64,000 nucleotides of DNA from Myxococcales bacterium (lineage in GTDB: Bacteria; Myxococcota_A; Polyangia; Polyangiales; Polyangiaceae): the NCBI GenBank assembly GCA_016212965.1, contig JACRDA010000346.1, forward strand, positions 1 to 64,000, read 5' to 3'. The translations under genes were made by a program, and so were the position numbers. Shown here in pieces: positions 46,940 to 56,118 of the stretch. The stretch's first letter is position 1. Each line of letters starts with the position of its first letter. Under the pieces are notes generated by a model that saw nothing but the letters and a program-made list of their open reading frames with translations, was not told the origin of the DNA and searched no databases.

Positions 46940-48817
46940 CTAGAACTGGTAGCGCGCGCGCGCGAACACGGTCGAGCCGCCCTCGGCGGGGTCGCCGAAC
47001 TTCGTGCGCTCCTTGCCGATCTTGAGCTGCGCGCCCACGGCGAGCCCCATGCCCGGGATGACCTCGTACTCGACCTCGGGCACGACGACGGCCGAGAAAC
47101 CGTCGGGCGTGAACATCGAGTGGTGCGTGCGCACGCGCGCGCCCTCGACGGGGTCGAAGTAGTCCTCGGTCACGCCGAGCAGGTCGAAGATGGCGAGCGT
47201 GCGGAGCGAGAGCGCGTCGTCGAGGAGGCGCACCTCGAGCTCCGCCGTGAGGTAGTCGCCGAGGCGCGGGCGCACGACCTCGTACGCGCTCGTCGTGCCG
47301 TCGCCGCTGAGCGCGCACTGCACGGCATTGCACGCCGGCCCGGCGACGCCGCCGAACAGCACCGTCTCGCCCGGGCTGATGAAGTCGCCCGCGCCGTACT
47401 CCTCGGGTAGGCCGTGCACCCATTGCAGCCCGGCCGTGAGCTCCGGCACGAAGCGGTACGAGAGTCCGAGCACCCACTTCGCGAAGGGCGTCCTGCGCAC
47501 CGTCTCCGGGACCGGACCGCCCGGGATGCCGTCGCCGTCGTAGTCGTAGCTGCCCGGCCCCTGTGCCGGGATCACGGGCAGGGCGCCCGTCTCGATCTCG
47601 AGCTCCGCCCGCTCGGGGACGACGAGCGCGGCCTCGAGGTGATAGTCGAGCGGCGCGGCGTCCTCGTCGAGCTCGTCGAGCGGGATCGCGCCCGCGACGT
47701 TGAGCCCGAAGGCGTGCATGCGCGGGTAGTCGAGCTCGATCGCGTTGGCGAGCACGCCCTTGGTGCAGGTGCCGGGCTCGTCGGGGTCGCACACCGGCGT
47801 CGCGTCGTAGTGAATGCTGCGCTTCCTGGCCTGCGGGAAGTCGGTGCGGCCGAGGTAGTACGAGAGCGCGAAGTGCTGGCGCGCGACGTCCACGGCGACG
47901 CGGTAGCCCACCTGCATGTTCTCGAAGGCCGGCTTCGGCAGCTCGGGCACGATCTCGCGCACCACGTGCGGGATGCCGACGAGCGGCCCGGCGGCCGCGG
48001 CGGCCTCGGCCTCGAGCCGGTGGCGCAGCGCGGCGTCGTCGAGTCCGAGCCTGTCGACGCGCGTCCAGGCGAGGTTCGCCGTCTCCGGCAAGAGGGCGGG
48101 TCGGAAGATGGGCACGAGCACGCCCGCATGGCTCAGGTACCGGTTCACCCGGTAGTCGATCCGCAGCATCAGGTTGCCCTGCTGGCGGCCGTACTCGAGC
48201 GGATCCTCGACGTCGTCGGCGTTCAGGTTGTCGGTGGGGTTGAAGTGGCGCGCCGTGCCCCAGCGCACGAGCTGCTGGCCGACGCGGAGCAGCAGGCCGT
48301 CGGTGAACAGGCCGTCGACCTCGACGTAGGCCGCGCGCGGGTCGAAGCGCAGCGGATTGACGCGCGGCAGGAGCGACAGCTCCTCGAGGCCCTCGAGCGT
48401 CTCGGGCCGACCGTAGAACACGACGTCGAGGTCGAGGACCGCCTTCACCGGGGCGTACTCCGCGCTCACCATCGCGTTGACGGCGTTCTCGTTGCGCGCG
48501 ACGCCGAGCGGAGCCGTCAAGCGGTCGTAGAACGAGCCGACGGCCTTCTCGTGCACGCGGAAGCGCACGTCCGAGCGGATCCCGCCGCCGAAGGTGAAGG
48601 TCGGGATGGGGGCGGGCTCCGTCGCCGCCTCCTCGTCCGCCTCGGTCGTTGCGGCGGCCTCGCTCTCGGTCGTCGCGGGCGGGGTGTCCGCCTCGGCTGC
48701 AGTGCTCGGTGCCGCCTGCCCCGCTTCGTCCTCCGGGGCCTGCGCGGCCGCCGTCGCGGCGCAGAGGAGCGGGCACAAGAGCCCGGCCAGGGACAGCGGC
48801 AACGCGGTGCGCCTCAT
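46940..48817 (-). CDS. Outer-membrane beta-barrel, DUF1302-like, candidate porin of the cytochrome conduit
   Basis: 625 residues with a Sec signal (LSLAGLLCPLLCAATAAAQA). After an acidic Ala/Thr/Glu linker, the rest alternates amphipathic strands with turns, and the last residues FARARYQF end in Phe, the usual barrel-insertion signal. Motifs LLLRVGQQLVRWGTARHFNP and NLNADDVEDPLEYGRQQGNLMLRIDYRVN match the DUF1302/alginate-porin type group. In its operon it follows the cytochromes, 56 bases from the 17-haem gene. It may form the sheath through which an outer-membrane cytochrome wire passes, or export a substrate. Confidence 0.82.
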   Translation of the reverse strand: MRRTALPLSLAGLLCPLLCAATAAAQAPEDEAGQAAPSTAAEADTPPATTESEAAATTEADEEAATEPAPIPTFTFGGGIRSDVRFRVHEKAVGSFYDRLTAPLGVARNENAVNAMVSAEYAPVKAVLDLDVVFYGRPETLEGLEELSLLPRVNPLRFDPRAAYVEVDGLFTDGLLLRVGQQLVRWGTARHFNPTDNLNADDVEDPLEYGRQQGNLMLRIDYRVNRYLSHAGVLVPIFRPALLPETANLAWTRVDRLGLDDAALRHRLEAEAAAAAGPLVGIPHVVREIVPELPKPAFENMQVGYRVAVDVARQHFALSYYLGRTDFPQARKRSIHYDATPVCDPDEPGTCTKGVLANAIELDYPRMHAFGLNVAGAIPLDELDEDAAPLDYHLEAALVVPERAELEIETGALPVIPAQGPGSYDYDGDGIPGGPVPETVRRTPFAKWVLGLSYRFVPELTAGLQWVHGLPEEYGAGDFISPGETVLFGGVAGPACNAVQCALSGDGTTSAYEVVRPRLGDYLTAELEVRLLDDALSLRTLAIFDLLGVTEDYFDPVEGARVRTHHSMFTPDGFSAVVVPEVEYEVIPGMGLAVGAQLKIGKERTKFGDPAEGGSTVFARARYQF

Positions 48818-48873: not shown

Positions 48874-50991
48874 TCACTTCTGGTGACAGCTGTTGCACTC
48901 GAAGGGGTTCTCGAAGCGGTAGGGGGCGCCCCACGTCACGGCGACCTGGGCGAGGTGACACGACACGTCGCTGCACGAGCGCGTGCCGGGGTCGTAGCTC
49001 GCGCTGCCGAGGTCGAAGCTCGTCGCCAGCATCGGCACGGGCGCCGTCGTGAAGGCCACGGTGCGCTCGCCGTCCACGTGGCGCGTGTGGTCGGCGATGG
49101 GCACGGGCGCGTAGACCGACCAGCCGTAGGTGGCCGGGGCCGTGCTGCGCGTGCGCGTGCCCTCGGCCGTCACGGTGGCGGCGTGGCAGCCCGTGCACGC
49201 CATCGGCTCGGCACCGTGGAGCCAGCCGTGGAGGTTCTCGTTGCCGCCCGCGTCGATGTACGAGTGCGAGTCTCCGACGCCCGCGGCGACCTCGGGGCTC
49301 GCGGTGCGGGGCGGGAAGCCGTGACAGCCGCCGCACGAGAGCGTGTCGCCCCAGCTCGGCGTGCGATACGTGCGCGCCAGCGTGACGCCGTAGCTCGGGT
49401 ACTGGATCGGGTAGCCCGCGAACGGCAGATCGACGCCCGGCTCCGGGACGGGACCCGGGGCGTCCACGCCCGCCGCGCTGTGGCAGTACACGTCGCTGCA
49501 GGTCCCGCCCTCCGTGTAGCGGAGCCCCTCGGCGTCGACGGCCACGGTCGCGCCCGGCTGGTAGCTCGCCGTCCCGAGGTGCATGGCCCGGAGCGAGCCC
49601 GGCGCTGCGCCCGCGGGCGACAGCTCCACCTCGGCCTGCCCGCCACCCGCGTTGTCGATGCCGTTCGCGTGGCTCGCGAGATCGAGCGGGTGGCAGTTAC
49701 CGCAGTCGAAGGCGTACGCCGTCCCGGCCGGCATGAGCTGCGCCGTCGCTCCGACCCCGCCGTAGCTCGCGGAGGTGGGCAGCGCTGCGAAGTGGACGAG
49801 GTGGCTCCCGGTGGCCGGCGGCGCGCCGTGGCAACCGTCGCACGGACCGTTGGTCGCGACCTGGAGCAGGCCGTCGATGTGCAGGCCCGCCGCGACGTCG
49901 ATGGTCCCGGTCGTCCCGTCCATCGTGCCGGGGTGGCAGGACTCGCACGCGTCGTTCTGCGGGTGAGGCCCCGGGGGCGGCGCGCCGTGGCAGGTCCCAC
50001 ATGCGGCCTGCGAGCCGTCGACCAGCGTCCACTCCGGGGTCGTGTTCGTGCCGCCGCTGAGCGTCGCGCCGTGGCAGTAGGTCGCGGCGCAGGTCGCGAG
50101 CGCGCGGTCCCAGCTCGGCGCGACCGCGTGGGCCTGCGCGAGCACGCCCCACTCGAGCTCGGCCGGCGCGGCGTCGCGGTGGGTCGGCTCGTCGGCCGAG
50201 GTCGGCACGCGGTGGCACTCCTGGCACAGGACGGCACGCCGGATGGCGCCGTCGCGCAGGTGCGACGCGTGCGCGCCGACCTCGACGGCGGTCGTGTCCG
50301 TGAGACCTCCGACGGAGGTCGGGGGCGCCGGATGTCCCGCGCTCCCGTGGCACGAGGAGCAATCGGGCGTGACGTCGACGACGCCGTCGACGTGCTTGCC
50401 GCCGGCGATGTCGATGGCGCCGCTCGTGCCGTCCATCGTCTCGGGGTGGCAGTCCTCGCAGCGGTCGCGATCGGGGTGGGGCGCCGGTGGCGGCGCGCCG
50501 TGGCAGCTGTCGCAGCCCGTCTGGCTCCCGTCGACCTCGGTCCAGACGGGGCTCGTGGTGGTGCCGCCCGCGAGCGTCGCGCCGTGGCAGTAGCTGCCGG
50601 CGCACGTGGCGTCCGCGCGCTCCCAGCTCGGCGCGGCACCGCTCGCGCGGGCGAGCGCGCCCCAGGTGACCTCGGCCGGCCACGCGTCGAGGTGACCCGG
50701 ATCGGTCGGGCTCCACGGCACGACGTGGCATTCGCCGCACGCGACGGCCGCGCGGTAGCTGCCGTCCACGAGGTGCGCCTGGTGCGCTCCGACCTCGACG
50801 GCGTCGGTCGCGCTCGCACCCGAGAGCGCGCCCGGTGGGGCCGCGTTGTCGGCGCTGCCGTGACAGCAGCTGCAGTCGGCACCGCCCGCGACCGGCCCGT
50901 GCTCGGCCGCGGGGTCGCAGCCGAGCAAGGCGAGGCCGACGCACGCGCACAGGGCGAGCGAAAAGCCCGAGGTCGTCGTGCGCTGGCTCAT
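48874..50991 (-). CDS. 17-haem c-type cytochrome, lipoprotein
   Basis: 705 residues, lipobox LALLGC (Cys25). By my count it holds 13 CxxCH and 4 CxxxxCH sites (such as CAGSYCH, CAATYCH, CSDVYCH, CSDVSCH). The first ten sites form two repeats of the pattern CxxCH-CxxCH-CxxxxCH-CxxCH-CxxCH; the last seven are more divergent, ending NPFECNSCHQK. CxxxxCH with CxxCH partners is typical of Geobacter-like extracellular cytochromes. The ATG overlaps the stop of the 20-haem gene (ATGA), so they are translationally coupled. Expected to sit at the outer membrane. Confidence 0.9.
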   Translation of the reverse strand: MSQRTTTSGFSLALCACVGLALLGCDPAAEHGPVAGGADCSCCHGSADNAAPPGALSGASATDAVEVGAHQAHLVDGSYRAAVACGECHVVPWSPTDPGHLDAWPAEVTWGALARASGAAPSWERADATCAGSYCHGATLAGGTTTSPVWTEVDGSQTGCDSCHGAPPPAPHPDRDRCEDCHPETMDGTSGAIDIAGGKHVDGVVDVTPDCSSCHGSAGHPAPPTSVGGLTDTTAVEVGAHASHLRDGAIRRAVLCQECHRVPTSADEPTHRDAAPAELEWGVLAQAHAVAPSWDRALATCAATYCHGATLSGGTNTTPEWTLVDGSQAACGTCHGAPPPGPHPQNDACESCHPGTMDGTTGTIDVAAGLHIDGLLQVATNGPCDGCHGAPPATGSHLVHFAALPTSASYGGVGATAQLMPAGTAYAFDCGNCHPLDLASHANGIDNAGGGQAEVELSPAGAAPGSLRAMHLGTASYQPGATVAVDAEGLRYTEGGTCSDVYCHSAAGVDAPGPVPEPGVDLPFAGYPIQYPSYGVTLARTYRTPSWGDTLSCGGCHGFPPRTASPEVAAGVGDSHSYIDAGGNENLHGWLHGAEPMACTGCHAATVTAEGTRTRSTAPATYGWSVYAPVPIADHTRHVDGERTVAFTTAPVPMLATSFDLGSASYDPGTRSCSDVSCHLAQVAVTWGAPYRFENPFECNSCHQK

Positions 50992-53171
50992 GGCAGGAGC
51001 TCCACGACGCCGTTGACGTGCGTGCTCGGCAGCACGTCGCCCGGCAGGGGGTGACAGGTGACGCAGATGGGGTCGTTCACGTGGGGCAGCGCCGGTGGGA
51101 AGTCGTGACAGCTCCCGCACGGTGCACCGCCGCCGACCCAGTCCGGCGTCACGCTCGCGCCCCCGCTCACCGTCGCGCCGTGACAGTGGGTCCCGGCGCA
51201 CGTCCGGGTGACCGGGTCCCAGCTCGGCACGGCCCCGAACGCCGTCCCGACCGGCCCGCCGAAGGTGATCTCGGCCGGCGCGGCGTCCATGTGCGTGCCG
51301 TCCTTCGGGTCCGACGGCACGAGGTGACACTCGGAGCAGGCGTAGGCCGCGTGCAGGAAGGTCTCCCGCACGTGCGCCTGGTGCGCGCCCACGGCGACGT
51401 CGTTGGGATCGCTCGAGCCCGTCGTCGACACGGGTGGAGCGGCGTTTTCCGCGCCTCCGTGGCAGCTGCTGCAGCCGAGGTCGCCCACGTCGACGACGCC
51501 GTTGACGTGCTTGCCACCCGCGACGAGCACCTGCCCCGTGTCGTCCACGGTGTCCGCGTGGCACTTCCAGCACTCGCTGCGGGGCGGGTGCGGGCTCGGT
51601 GGCGGCAGGCCGTGGCAGGTGCCGCAGGCCGCCTGGCCGGTGCCGACCTCGGTCCACACCGGTGTGGTGAGGCTGCCTCCCCCGAGCGTGCTGCCGTGGC
51701 AGTAGACCGCGCTGCAGGTCGCGCTCGGGCGGTCCCACCCGGGGGACGAGCCGTCGGCGAGCGGCAGCACGCCCCAGACGACCTCGGCCGGCAGGCCATC
51801 CATGTGGGTCGTCTCACCCACGCTCGACGGGACCACGTGACACTCCTGGCAGGGGATCGGCCCGCGCAGGCTGCCGCCGGCGACGTGCGCCTGGTGAGCG
51901 CCGACGCCGACGAAGGTGGTGTCGCTCTCGCCGGTCGTGGCGCTCGGCGGGGCCGCGTTGGCTGCGCCGCCGTGGCAAGCGTTGCACGCGGAGGCGGGCA
52001 CGAAGTCCGCGACGCCGTTCACGTGGTAGCCGCCGGCCACGTCGAGCCCGCCCGCGGGGTCCATCGTGAGCTGGTGGCACGCCTTGCAGTCGGAGCTCGC
52101 CGGGTGGGGCGGCGGTGGCGGCAGGCCGTGGCACGCGCCGCAGAACGCCTGCGTCCCGTCGACGACGGTCCAGGTCGGTGTGGCCACGAGCCCGCCCCCG
52201 AGCGTCGCCCCGTGGCAGTACACGTCGCTGCAGGTCTCGGCGTCGCGGTCCCACGTGGGCGCGAGGCCCGGCCCGGTGGCAGTGACGCCCCAGACGACCT
52301 CGGCGGGGGAGGCGTCCTGATGGGTCGGCTCCTCGAGCGTGGTCGGCACGACGTGGCACTCCTGGCAGGGGAACGCGAGCGCGAGGGGGCCCTGTCGCAC
52401 GTGCGCCTGGTGCGCCCCCACGGTGACCTCGCTCGTGGCGCTCGCGCCCTCGAGCGATCGCGGCGGCGCGGCGTTCTCGGGCCCGCCGTGGCAGCGCGCA
52501 CAGAGCTCGCCCACGAGCTCGACCGAGCCGTCGAGGTGCGTGCCGGCCCCGAGATCGATCACGAGCGCGCCGTTCTGCACCATCACGCCGGGGTGGCAGG
52601 TCCCGCAGTCGCCGTCCTCGGGGTGGGGCGCAGGCGGCGGGGCACCGTGGCAGCCGTCGCAGCCGAGTGCGCCCGCGGGCTCGGTCCAGCTCGGTGTCAC
52701 CGCGACCCCGCCCGTCAAGGTGGCGCCATGGCAATAGGTGCCGGCGCAGGTCGCCTCGGCGCGGCTCCACACGGGCTCGGCCGACGCGGCCGACGCGAGC
52801 GGCCCCCAGGTGATCTCGGCCGGTGCGGCATCGAGGTGGCCGGGATCGTCGAGCCGTGCCGGCATGACGTGGCACTCGGAGCACGCGACGCCAGCGCCGA
52901 GCGCACCCGGCTGCACGTGCGCCTGGTGCGCGCCGACGGCGAGCTCGGTGGTGGCGGTCGCGCCGTTCGTCGCGCGCGGCGGCGCCGGATTGTCGGCCCC
53001 GCCGTGGCAATCGCTGCAGCTGCCGCCCGAGAGCGAGGTCGGCGCGGGCGGATCGGCCTTGCAGCCGAAGGCCCCCGCGGCTGCAGCGGCAAGCCCGAGC
53101 CCGAGTCCGAGCGCCCGCGCGCGCGTGGCAGCCCGCCGGGTCACGGCTCGATTCCTGGTGTCATGGGACAT
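50988..53171 (-). CDS. 20-haem c-type cytochrome, lipoprotein, four five-haem repeats
   Basis: 727 residues, signal ends AFGC (Cys37). Four tandem units begin at about residues 50, 224, 394 and 565, each with five haem sites ordered CxxCH, CxxCH, CxxxxCH, CxxCH, CxxCH (20 in all: 16 CxxCH, 4 CxxxxCH). Each unit also repeats GAHQAHV and a later PPPHP-type segment; extra His in HQAH may give distal ligands. DNA periodicity is about 515 bases. The design suggests a rod of repeating five-haem modules. The start ATG 53171 lies 13 bases after the 13-haem gene stop. Confidence 0.9.
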   Translation of the reverse strand: MSHDTRNRAVTRRAATRARALGLGLGLAAAAAGAFGCKADPPAPTSLSGGSCSDCHGGADNPAPPRATNGATATTELAVGAHQAHVQPGALGAGVACSECHVMPARLDDPGHLDAAPAEITWGPLASAASAEPVWSRAEATCAGTYCHGATLTGGVAVTPSWTEPAGALGCDGCHGAPPPAPHPEDGDCGTCHPGVMVQNGALVIDLGAGTHLDGSVELVGELCARCHGGPENAAPPRSLEGASATSEVTVGAHQAHVRQGPLALAFPCQECHVVPTTLEEPTHQDASPAEVVWGVTATGPGLAPTWDRDAETCSDVYCHGATLGGGLVATPTWTVVDGTQAFCGACHGLPPPPPHPASSDCKACHQLTMDPAGGLDVAGGYHVNGVADFVPASACNACHGGAANAAPPSATTGESDTTFVGVGAHQAHVAGGSLRGPIPCQECHVVPSSVGETTHMDGLPAEVVWGVLPLADGSSPGWDRPSATCSAVYCHGSTLGGGSLTTPVWTEVGTGQAACGTCHGLPPPSPHPPRSECWKCHADTVDDTGQVLVAGGKHVNGVVDVGDLGCSSCHGGAENAAPPVSTTGSSDPNDVAVGAHQAHVRETFLHAAYACSECHLVPSDPKDGTHMDAAPAEITFGGPVGTAFGAVPSWDPVTRTCAGTHCHGATVSGGASVTPDWVGGGAPCGSCHDFPPALPHVNDPICVTCHPLPGDVLPSTHVNGVVELLP

Positions 53172-53184
53172 GCGGCGGACGGGG

Positions 53185-55137
53185 TCACTCGTTGGTGCAT
53201 TCGTTGGAGCAGCCATCACCGTCGACCTTGTTCCCGTCGTCGCACGCCTCGACGCCCTCGAGCACGCCATTGCCGCAGGCCTGGCAGCCGAAGGAGTTGT
53301 TGCCGCCGCCCCAGTCGTAGTTCTCCCAGTCCTGGCCGTGGCCGTGGCAGGTCTGGCAGCCGCCGCAGTACGCGTGCCAGTCGTAGGCTTCGAGCCATTG
53401 CGCGTGACAGGTGCTGCACAGGCCCGTGGCCCCGCCCCAGTCCACGCTCGCGGGGTCCGAGCCGCCGGGCGGAGGATTGGCGCCCGGTGTCACCGTCACG
53501 ATGACCTCGCGTGTGGCGCCGAAGGTGTTCCAGGGCGGCCCGGTCCACGCAGCGCCCGGCCGTACCCCGTCGTCGACGAAGGCCTTGCCGTCGACGACGT
53601 CGCGGATCGCGTAGGGGTTGCCGGCCGGGTTGTTCGCCGAGTACGAGCCGTGCGGGTCGTGGCACACCGTGCAGTCGACCTCGGCCCCCGGCGCGTCCGA
53701 GTACCCGGCCCAGCCGCGCTTCGAGTCCCCCCCGTGGGTGCTGTGCGCCCAGGTGTAGCTCGTCCAATAGGGCACCGTGACGTACTCGCACGAGGCGAAG
53801 GGGCGCAGGCCCGAGGCGAGCGTGAAGCCGCCGCTGCAATCGGCCGACGGGTTGTCGCAGGGCACGCCGCTCGGGTCCACGCGAATGACGGACGTCTCGA
53901 CGCCCGCCGGCATCCGTGTGTCGGTGGGACCCTCGCCGCCCGCGTGACAGCGCAGGCAGAAGTTGGTGGTCGTGCCCGCCCACGGCTGGGTCGTGTCGTC
54001 CGGGTCGGCGAGCTTCTGGCCCGCCGAGGGATTGTGCGCGCCGTGGCAGCTCAGGCACTCGAGCTTGGCGCCGCTCGCGGCCTGATCGGCGTCCGACAGA
54101 TCGTGGTGCGAGTTGACGAAGCGCAGCGTGCCCTCGGAGCCGAAGCACCAGTCGCCGTACCACTCGTTCCAGGCGAGGGTGCCCGCGAAGCGGCTCGCGA
54201 CCTCCGGCGGTGCGAAACCGCTCGCGAAGGGGTCGAGCGGCGTCGCCAGCCGGGCGGCGCCGTCGCCGTCGTGGCAGCGGGCGCAGAAGGTCGACAGATC
54301 GGGGTCGGACGCGAGGTCGCTCGGCCGCTCGAAGGTGACGAGCGCGCCCGTGTCCGGATCGAGCAAGTCGACGCGCCCGTCCGCGTGCGTCGCGACGTCG
54401 TGGCACACGAGGCAGTCGGCGTCCGATACGGGGCTCTGGCGCAGGTGCGCGTGGCTCGTGCCGACGGGGTACTCGCCGACCATGGCGCGGCGCCCGCCGA
54501 GCGGTGTGCCGTCGCCATTGTCCTGCGCGAGCGCGTGGCAATCGGTGCAGGAGCTCGGCAAGAAGCCCTTGTCGTGCCGGTGGCAGAAGGTGCAATCCAT
54601 GCCGACGTTGTGGCCGTTGTCGGCGCTGCCGTCGTTGCGATGATAGGCCGTCTGCGTGTGGCAACTCTGGCAGATGCCGTCGTAGGGGGTGCTGCCCGTC
54701 GGGAAGGCGAAGTGCTGCGGCCGCTGCTGGAACACGGCGGGCTCGAGCGCGGCCGGCACGTACTTCGCCGTGTCGGCGCGCACCAGGCTCCGGTTGTCGG
54801 CGCTGACGCCGCCCGGATGCGGGTCGGCGCTCGCGTGCCGGCGGTGCGGGTCGTGGCACGAGCCGCAGTCCACGATCGTCGTCCCGCCATTGACGTTGTG
54901 GAGCGCCACGTCGGCCATGCTCGCGGCCTGGCCGGTCGGGTTGTGGCAGCTCTTGCAGACCACATCCTGGTCGAGATCGCGCGGCAGGAGCGGATCGACG
55001 TCGGAGTGCGAGGCGTGGCAATCGCGGCACGCGATCGTGTTCGAGGCGTCGTGGGGCGGGTCGAAGGCGCGTGCGACCCCACCCGCGACGGTGAGGAGCA
55101 GGCCGAGCGCGGCGCCGAGGGCGAGAGGACGCGACAT
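53185..55137 (-). CDS. 13-haem c-type cytochrome with Cys-rich Myxo-type tail
   Basis: 650 residues with a Sec signal (ALGLLLTVAGGVARA); no lipobox, so periplasmic or secreted. Thirteen CxxCH sites by my count, no CxxxxCH. Between the sites are His-rich stretches (HNVNGGT, HDPHRRH, HGQDWENYDWGG). The C-terminal 35 residues, CGNGVLEGVEACDDG and following GDGCSNEC, match the DUF4215/Myxo cysteine-rich repeat, usually found on surface proteins. Starts three bases past the NHL gene stop. Probably takes electrons from inner-membrane donors and passes them to the lipoprotein cytochromes. Confidence 0.9.
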   Translation of the reverse strand: MSRPLALGAALGLLLTVAGGVARAFDPPHDASNTIACRDCHASHSDVDPLLPRDLDQDVVCKSCHNPTGQAASMADVALHNVNGGTTIVDCGSCHDPHRRHASADPHPGGVSADNRSLVRADTAKYVPAALEPAVFQQRPQHFAFPTGSTPYDGICQSCHTQTAYHRNDGSADNGHNVGMDCTFCHRHDKGFLPSSCTDCHALAQDNGDGTPLGGRRAMVGEYPVGTSHAHLRQSPVSDADCLVCHDVATHADGRVDLLDPDTGALVTFERPSDLASDPDLSTFCARCHDGDGAARLATPLDPFASGFAPPEVASRFAGTLAWNEWYGDWCFGSEGTLRFVNSHHDLSDADQAASGAKLECLSCHGAHNPSAGQKLADPDDTTQPWAGTTTNFCLRCHAGGEGPTDTRMPAGVETSVIRVDPSGVPCDNPSADCSGGFTLASGLRPFASCEYVTVPYWTSYTWAHSTHGGDSKRGWAGYSDAPGAEVDCTVCHDPHGSYSANNPAGNPYAIRDVVDGKAFVDDGVRPGAAWTGPPWNTFGATREVIVTVTPGANPPPGGSDPASVDWGGATGLCSTCHAQWLEAYDWHAYCGGCQTCHGHGQDWENYDWGGGNNSFGCQACGNGVLEGVEACDDGNKVDGDGCSNECTNE

Positions 55138-55140
55138 GGC

Positions 55141-56118
55141 TCACTGCCCTCCTTCGGGCGCAGCGAAGCGCGCGATGCGGTGGTTCTCCGCGTTGGCGAC
55201 GACGAGCGCGCCGTCCGGCGCGAGCTCGACGTCGAGCGGCAGGTAGAGCTCGCCGGGGCCGCGGCCGAGCCGGCCGTGATGCGCGAGGTAGCCGCCGCCG
55301 TCGGCGTCGAGCACCTGCACGAGCGCGAGGCGGCTGTCCGCGGCGTACACCCGGCCGGCGCCGTCCGTCGCCACGCTCTGCAGCCGGACGAAACGCCCCT
55401 GCCAGTCCGCGTCGAAGGCCTCCATGCGCTCGCCGAGCTGCCGGAGCGCGCGGCCCTCGAGATCGAGCACGACGACGCGGCCGTTGCCCTGGTCGGCGAC
55501 GTAGAGCTCGCCCGTGGCGGTCCCGTCGGCTCCGAGCTGGCTCGTGACCGCCACCGCGGCCGGGAACCGGAAGGGTGAGGCGTCGCCCGCGCCCTCGATG
55601 ACGCGCACGAGCGCCCGCGACGCCGTGTCGTAGACGCGCACCGCGTCGGCGGCGCTGTCGGCGACGTACAGCTGCCCGGCCGCGTCGAGCGCGAGGTCGT
55701 TGGGCATGCCGATCGCGCCCGGGCCGATCGCGTGGAGCAGCCCGCCGGTGGGCCCGTACACCTCGACGGCGGCGCGGTCGCGCGACCCGACGTAGATGCG
55801 GCCGGCCGCGTCGACCACGACCCCGAGCGGGCCGCCGAGGCCCTTCAGCTCGGCGACGACCGCGCCTTCGTCTTGCACGAAGACAGAGCCCACCTTGACG
55901 TCGCTCACGTAGAGCCGCCCGTCGGGACCGTGGGCGAGCCGGGTCGGGTACTCGAGCGCGTGCTCGACGGTGAGCGCGCTGCAGAGCGGGCCCGGCTCGA
56001 TGCGCACCGTACCCTCCTCCGAGCGCGGGGGCGCGTGGGTCGAGGGCGCCGGTGCCGAAGTGCAGGACCCGAGGGCGAGGGCCGCTGCTCCCAGTACGTG
56101 ACGATGGCAAAGTCGCAT
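55141..56118 (-). CDS. NHL-repeat beta-propeller lipoprotein
   Basis: 325 residues with lipobox ALALGSC (Cys19). Six or so NHL-like blades are readable (RLAHGPDGRLYVSDV, GVVVDAAGRIYVGSRD, DLALDAAGQLYVADS, AVTSQLG...LYVADQGNGRVVVLD, SVATDGAGRVYAADS, DVELAPDGALVVANAENHRI). No catalytic motif. It is the first gene of the cytochrome operon; NHL propellers next to multihaem cytochromes are seen in metal-reducing bacteria and may scaffold or cap the conduit. An upstream ATG is possible at 56286, but the signal peptide fixes the start at 56118. Confidence 0.87.
   Translation of the reverse strand: MRLCHRHVLGAAALALGSCTSAPAPSTHAPPRSEEGTVRIEPGPLCSALTVEHALEYPTRLAHGPDGRLYVSDVKVGSVFVQDEGAVVAELKGLGGPLGVVVDAAGRIYVGSRDRAAVEVYGPTGGLLHAIGPGAIGMPNDLALDAAGQLYVADSAADAVRVYDTASRALVRVIEGAGDASPFRFPAAVAVTSQLGADGTATGELYVADQGNGRVVVLDLEGRALRQLGERMEAFDADWQGRFVRLQSVATDGAGRVYAADSRLALVQVLDADGGGYLAHHGRLGRGPGELYLPLDVELAPDGALVVANAENHRIARFAAPEGGQ

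Follow-up and report, generated by a model that had tools for sequence, protein, structure and literature searches.

What does a cell gain from a single polypeptide predicted to hold 20 haems, assembled from four repeats of five haems each and encoded among other multihaem cytochromes? The question is raised by cytA, a gene in a 64,000-nucleotide stretch of DNA from a Myxococcales bacterium of the family Polyangiaceae (assembly GCA_016212965.1, contig JACRDA010000346.1), which we refer to as the window. A preliminary description had read the gene as coding for four identical five-haem modules that form a periodic haem chain, possibly a rod or a filament, and whose number may change by recombination between strains. 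The features of the locus are as follows, in the order of the operon.

55141..56118, minus strand: NHL-repeat beta-propeller, predicted lipoprotein; first operon gene
53185..55137, minus strand: multihaem cytochrome with 13 haem motifs, a signal peptide, a DmsE/decahaem-like N-terminal part and a C-terminal myxo cysteine-rich repeat
50988..53171, minus strand: cytA, 727 aa, predicted 20-haem lipoprotein c-type cytochrome of four five-haem modules, with TIGR01904, PF14522 and PF09698 matches
53061..53171, minus strand: lipoprotein signal peptide of cytA, ending in the lipobox AFGC with Cys37, the sole non-haem cysteine
52509..53024, minus strand: cytA five-haem module 1, residues 50-221
51993..52508, minus strand: cytA five-haem module 2, residues 222-393
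51480..51992, minus strand: cytA five-haem module 3, residues 394-564
50991..51479, minus strand: cytA five-haem module 4, residues 565-727, with no extra C-terminal domain
48874..50991, minus strand: cytB, 705 aa, predicted lipoprotein with 17 haem motifs, paralogue of cytA
46940..48817, minus strand: predicted outer-membrane beta-barrel protein, 625 aa, with a signal peptide and C-terminal F; last operon gene

Results

Repeat architecture and reading frame

The cytA coding sequence opens with ATG and closes with TGA on the minus strand, and its product contains 20 haem motifs in which the order CxxCH, CxxCH, CxxxxCH, CxxCH, CxxCH (2-2-4-2-2, counting residues between cysteines) occurs four times; 2000 shuffles of the protein gave a mean of 0.28 motifs and a maximum of 4. 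Units are 163-172 aa each, the distance from any motif to the fifth one after it is 169-173 residues, and the stretch GAHQAHV is present in all four, as had been proposed. Self-comparison of the DNA gave 53% ungapped identity at a lag of 516 bp and up to about 40% at other lags, and the coordinates given in the preliminary description are exact, its motif order, fourfold repetition and period (about 515 bases) right. Tandem Repeats Finder reported no array, but its longest period is 500, so the 516-bp period lies outside its range. The modules are not identical, as had been stated; pairwise, they share 45-59% identity. Codon positions in cytA differ sharply in composition (GC3 0.92 vs GC2 0.62), a pattern lacking in a plus-strand ORF that overlaps the gene, and cytA and its copy in a congener differ mostly in the third codon position (13/11/57), indicating that the minus-strand gene is the coding one.

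Haem ligands

The 41 cysteines of cytA comprise 40 in haem motifs and the lipobox Cys37, and 20 of its 43 histidines belong to motifs. Among the 23 histidines outside motifs, 20 are conserved, five to a module (two from GAHxxH, then one each from an H-x-D stretch, PHP or PHV, and HVNG/HLDG); the other three are H3, which lies in the signal, H607 and H662. Across 57 four-module and 127 two-module segments of relatives, all haem cysteines and histidines are invariant, and each of the five distal histidine columns per module shows either full conservation or conservation of 90% or more. For each of the 20 haems there is thus one conserved non-motif histidine available as candidate distal ligand, and with the set complete in every module we see no haem left with an open coordination site. 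As predicted from these residues, the ligand set is what an all-bis-histidine electron carrier would need, which speaks against an open, catalytic haem.

Family assignment

Judged by its profile matches, cytA is a TIGR01904/PF09698 (Geobacter CxxxxCH) cytochrome. The NCBIfam model TIGR01904 scored 167.8 bits over five stretches (E=3.2e-50; cut-off 27 bits), single matches on the genome having 45-64 bits, and PF09698 and PF14522 of Pfam were above cut-off. The CxxxxCH motifs read CAGTYCH, CSDVYCH, CSAVYCH and CAGTHCH, each followed 27-30 residues later by a CxxCH. The c7 triheme model TIGR04257 (nanowire_3heme) reached 15.9 bits, below its cut-off of 40; no nitrite, sulfite or tetrathionate reductase family of Pfam or NCBIfam matched cytA, a PDB sequence search gave no relative at E<0.05, and no paper on the TIGR01904/PF09698 domain came up when the literature was searched for these names.

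The family takes its name from Geobacter sulfurreducens, and its models find their matches, with the same CxxxxCH and subsequent CxxCH, in all four cytA modules. However, the curated models span 73 or 36 residues, whereas the repeat of cytA is a five-haem block of about 172 aa, one that neither Pfam nor NCBIfam reports as a single domain. To go by the repeat pattern, the natural unit is this five-haem block, which the curated models see only in part.

Structure models

An AlphaFold2 model of cytA modules 2-3 (127 rows) was confident (pLDDT 87.8, pTM 0.70) and, together with the retention of every haem cysteine and histidine in the 127 two-module segments, it upholds the earlier proposal of a periodic chain of five-haem modules. 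Foldseek, which performs poorly on proteins that have so few regular elements and are modelled haem-free, found no PDB fold match for this model, and the model is therefore no more than suggestive of a new fold. The full-length model, built from the 57 four-module rows, had a pLDDT of 70 and a pTM of 0.39, with uncertain placement of module against module, and likewise no PDB fold match; on that pTM it was dropped as a source of geometry. Searches of the PDB by sequence and by fold found no solved structure of the five-haem module.

Spread of the five-haem module

Of 284 Myxococcota genomes, 53 had a TIGR01904 match at E<=1e-10; the 14 control genomes had none. A contig scan of the collection, for which a module alignment of four rows served as profile, one of 13 rows being too heterogeneous, located the five-haem unit in Anaeromyxobacter soli, A. 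terrae, A. oryzae and Anaeromyxobacter PSR-1, in many Myxococcota/deltaproteobacterial bins, and in bins labelled Calditrichota, KSB1, Latescibacterota and Ignavibacteria/Melioribacter; none of the matches was on an annotated plasmid. Among these relatives, spacing inside the module varies very little and exceptions to the motif order are rare, with 2-2-4-3-2 and 2-2-3-2-2 as variants, while copy number runs from 1 to about 16 modules and haem number from 5 to 81. Lipoprotein-like signals are very common among them by a regular-expression test, which misses some that are visible by eye.

Three single ORFs from uncultured Myxococcota/deltaproteobacterial genomes, each made up mostly of the five-haem module, contain 81 (L134:4212-13088), 80 (L047:7166-16534) and 78 (L046:3167-11782) haem motifs. 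A record haem number was considered and rejected, since proteins with 86 (PMC9012536) and 112 (PMC11495043) haems have already been published. Three genomes of one genus (L135:3557-12412, L136:4397-13165 and L137:3971-12880) encode a 72-motif protein with one and the same motif string, of 2-2-4-3-2 units with CX3CH at position 4; copy number can thus also stay constant. A 67-haem protein (L107:3422-10198) consists of six-haem units (2-2-2-2-4-2), which are related to the five-haem module and carry one haem more. Many long arrays, such as those of L046, L099, L061 and L137, finish with a divergent cap that carries several haems and closes with CHG...W; cytA has no such cap.

Change in copy number

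The arrays of A. terrae (L070) and A. soli (L074) are orthologous, with conserved flanks of 94.5% and 89% identity, and count 11 and 9 modules, respectively. In A. terrae, modules 5 and 6 share 94% identity, and these two and modules 4 and 7 are all closest to one A. soli module; modules 5 and 6 of A. soli both match A. terrae module 8. Such a difference between syntenic orthologues means that modules have been gained or lost within the genus. The claim that unit number changes therefore stands for the family, from its range of 1 to about 16 modules and from Anaeromyxobacter, but is at present unsupported for cytA itself, where the longest exact DNA stretch common to two units is 22 bp, adjacent modules have a DNA identity of at most 0.80, and the congener also keeps four modules (its gene spans two contigs that overlap by 94 identical bp). 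We saw no sign in the cytA sequence of recent copy-number change. Rapid change of unit number in cytA, by recombination between strains, is thus highly unlikely, even with the near-identical adjacent modules and unequal orthologues of Anaeromyxobacter in its favour.

The operon and the cassette of relatives

The five minus-strand genes of the operon are separated by gaps of +3, +13, -4 and +56 nt, the overlap of 4 nt being that of the cytB start with the cytA stop, and encode, in order, the NHL propeller, the 13-haem cytochrome, cytA, the 17-haem paralogue cytB and the barrel-like protein; the three cytochromes together have 50 haem motifs. In cytB, two five-haem modules (about 50368-50880 and 49849-50367) are joined to a divergent C-terminal part of seven motifs. 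The C-terminal repeat of the 13-haem protein (53185-55137) is the myxo cysteine-rich acidic repeat TIGR02232, seemingly an unusual feature in a multihaem cytochrome. Gene order is kept, over two contigs, in the congener, Polyangiaceae bacterium SJ101, and the linkage of an NHL gene, a multihaem gene and a CxxxxCH gene recurs in loci L040 and L044.

In many loci, across phyla, a CxxxxCH-module protein adjoins a barrel-like family and a dense cytochrome of 11-14 haems (25 in L044), and one copy of this cassette is present in the genome studied here (G000:C409). An iterated profile search within locus flanks gave 18 members of the cassette barrel family, whose profile had no match in the PDB or Pfam; strand-like alternation, signal peptides and C-terminal residues suggest that they are barrels. 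The barrel of the window belongs to another family, a profile comparison with the cassette family giving a short GQQ/GRQ-motif match only, with a probability of 55%. No multihaem genes lie near its homologues in five other genera or near its paralogue at G000:C92, which weakened the case for this protein (46940-48817) as the porin of a porin-cytochrome (Pcc) conduit. Beside module genes we also encountered very dense cytochromes of about 18-19 residues per haem, with 26 haem motifs in 476 aa (L014:3228-4655), 25 in 454 aa (L018:2-1363) and 17 in 326 aa (L031:3-980).

Discussion

We consider cytA to be a lipid-anchored, all-bis-histidine, 20-haem TIGR01904 cytochrome that probably sits at the outer membrane or on the cell surface, where it would carry electrons over nanometre distances and store them, as an outer partner in extracellular electron exchange. 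It probably arose by tandem duplication of the Geobacter-type CxxxxCH (TIGR01904) five-haem module, and would act at the cell envelope as a tethered chain of low-spin haems, for transport or storage of electrons. One could envision the 13-haem protein supplying electrons from the periplasm, cytA and cytB passing them along or buffering them, and the NHL propeller and the barrel helping in assembly or docking. A periplasmic multihaem cytochrome is indeed encoded next to cytA, the 13-motif protein, which has a signal peptide and whose gene lies 13 nt upstream, but it is not of the dense 11-14-haem type. The lipobox would make cytA a lipoprotein, the mature protein beginning with CKADPPA; its Lys at +2 and Ala at +7 give conflicting hints, being, respectively, an inner-membrane mark and a matrix mark of lipoprotein sorting in Myxococcus (PMC3222651), a rule taken from another family. 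These mixed sorting signs are a point against the reading given above, and another is the operon, which has its own barrel, of another family, and neither the typical Pcc 11-14-haem partner nor a Pcc-type barrel.

Alternatively, cytA could serve chiefly to store electrons, as a capacitor or a buffer in the periplasm, and not to conduct them in one direction as a wire, in which case the number of haems would matter and their order would not. Selection for capacity would be expected to leave no fixed length, as seen in the 5 to 81 haems of relatives, and such a role has been speculated for proteins with very many haems (PMC11495043). Nevertheless, the strict spacing and nearly invariant motif order inside the module sit poorly with indifference to order, and the recurrent cassette of barrel and dense cytochrome points to a conduit in relatives, so that we regard a role mainly as a store as rather unlikely. 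Polymerisation into an extracellular filament of the OmcS/OmcE/OmcZ type, the repeats serving as covalently pre-assembled protomers, would account for the periodicity of cytA and for the multihaem genes next to it, but appears very improbable: the N-terminal lipobox argues for membrane anchoring over a freely polymerising subunit, candidate haem ligands balance within the chain, copy number varies in the family, unlike the fixed protomers of known filaments, and neither sequence nor fold matches the solved filaments in the PDB. Multihaem reductases exist, and CxxxxCH is an atypical haem motif, so one may ask whether cytA is an enzyme, such as a terminal reductase, with a catalytic haem. The full complement of conserved candidate distal histidines and the lack of a match to the three reductase families searched make this the kind of assignment we would hardly entertain. 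The reading of cytA as a tethered carrier at the cell envelope is the one that we retain.

On a wider scale, the five-haem CxxxxCH module may be an undescribed, open-ended building block used by Myxococcota and several other phyla for haem wires, each a single chain tethered to the membrane and its length set by copy number up to 81 haems, with a fold absent among solved structures and a haem chain continuous through every junction; we offer this proposal tentatively and hold it, as a whole, to be somewhat doubtful. The CxxxxCH family is already known, as is module fusion, from the cytochrome c7 fusions of 12 and 27 haems (PMC2996986). New, as far as our searches reach, are three points: the block that evolves is the five-haem unit, its copy number forms a series, and it seems to have no solved structure. 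Annotated domains hide the real unit, and many myxobacterial and other cytochromes become one family whose members differ by copy number. This family offers a natural length series for asking how the length of a haem chain affects conduction or storage, and the module connects poorly studied environmental Myxococcota with extracellular electron transfer.

Comparison with known systems

The Pcc conduit, described in Geobacter, Anaeromyxobacter and Ignavibacterium, is laid out as a porin, a periplasmic cytochrome and an outer cytochrome; the periplasmic partner of Ignavibacterium has 14 haems in 400 aa, and atypical CX3-4CH motifs have been reported in Pcc outer cytochromes (PMC4245776). The cassette of relatives and of G000:C409 resembles such a conduit in that a putative barrel and a cytochrome of 11-14 haems are neighbours of a five-haem-module protein. 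The window operon differs: its 13-haem protein is of another type, and a different barrel closes the operon. With the OmcS, OmcE and OmcZ filaments, cytA shares a multihaem chain for electron transport, but it has a lipid anchor and no PDB sequence or fold match, and its repeats lie inside one chain where the filaments are made of polymerised subunits. Geobacter also has GSU2495, a protein of 26 haems encoded beside the OmcS maturation cluster. The c7 fusions of Geobacter, made of four or nine c7 modules, resemble cytA in that copies of one small multihaem module are fused in tandem into a long haem protein; the module is a three-haem c7 unit in those proteins, whereas in cytA it is the five-haem CxxxxCH block.
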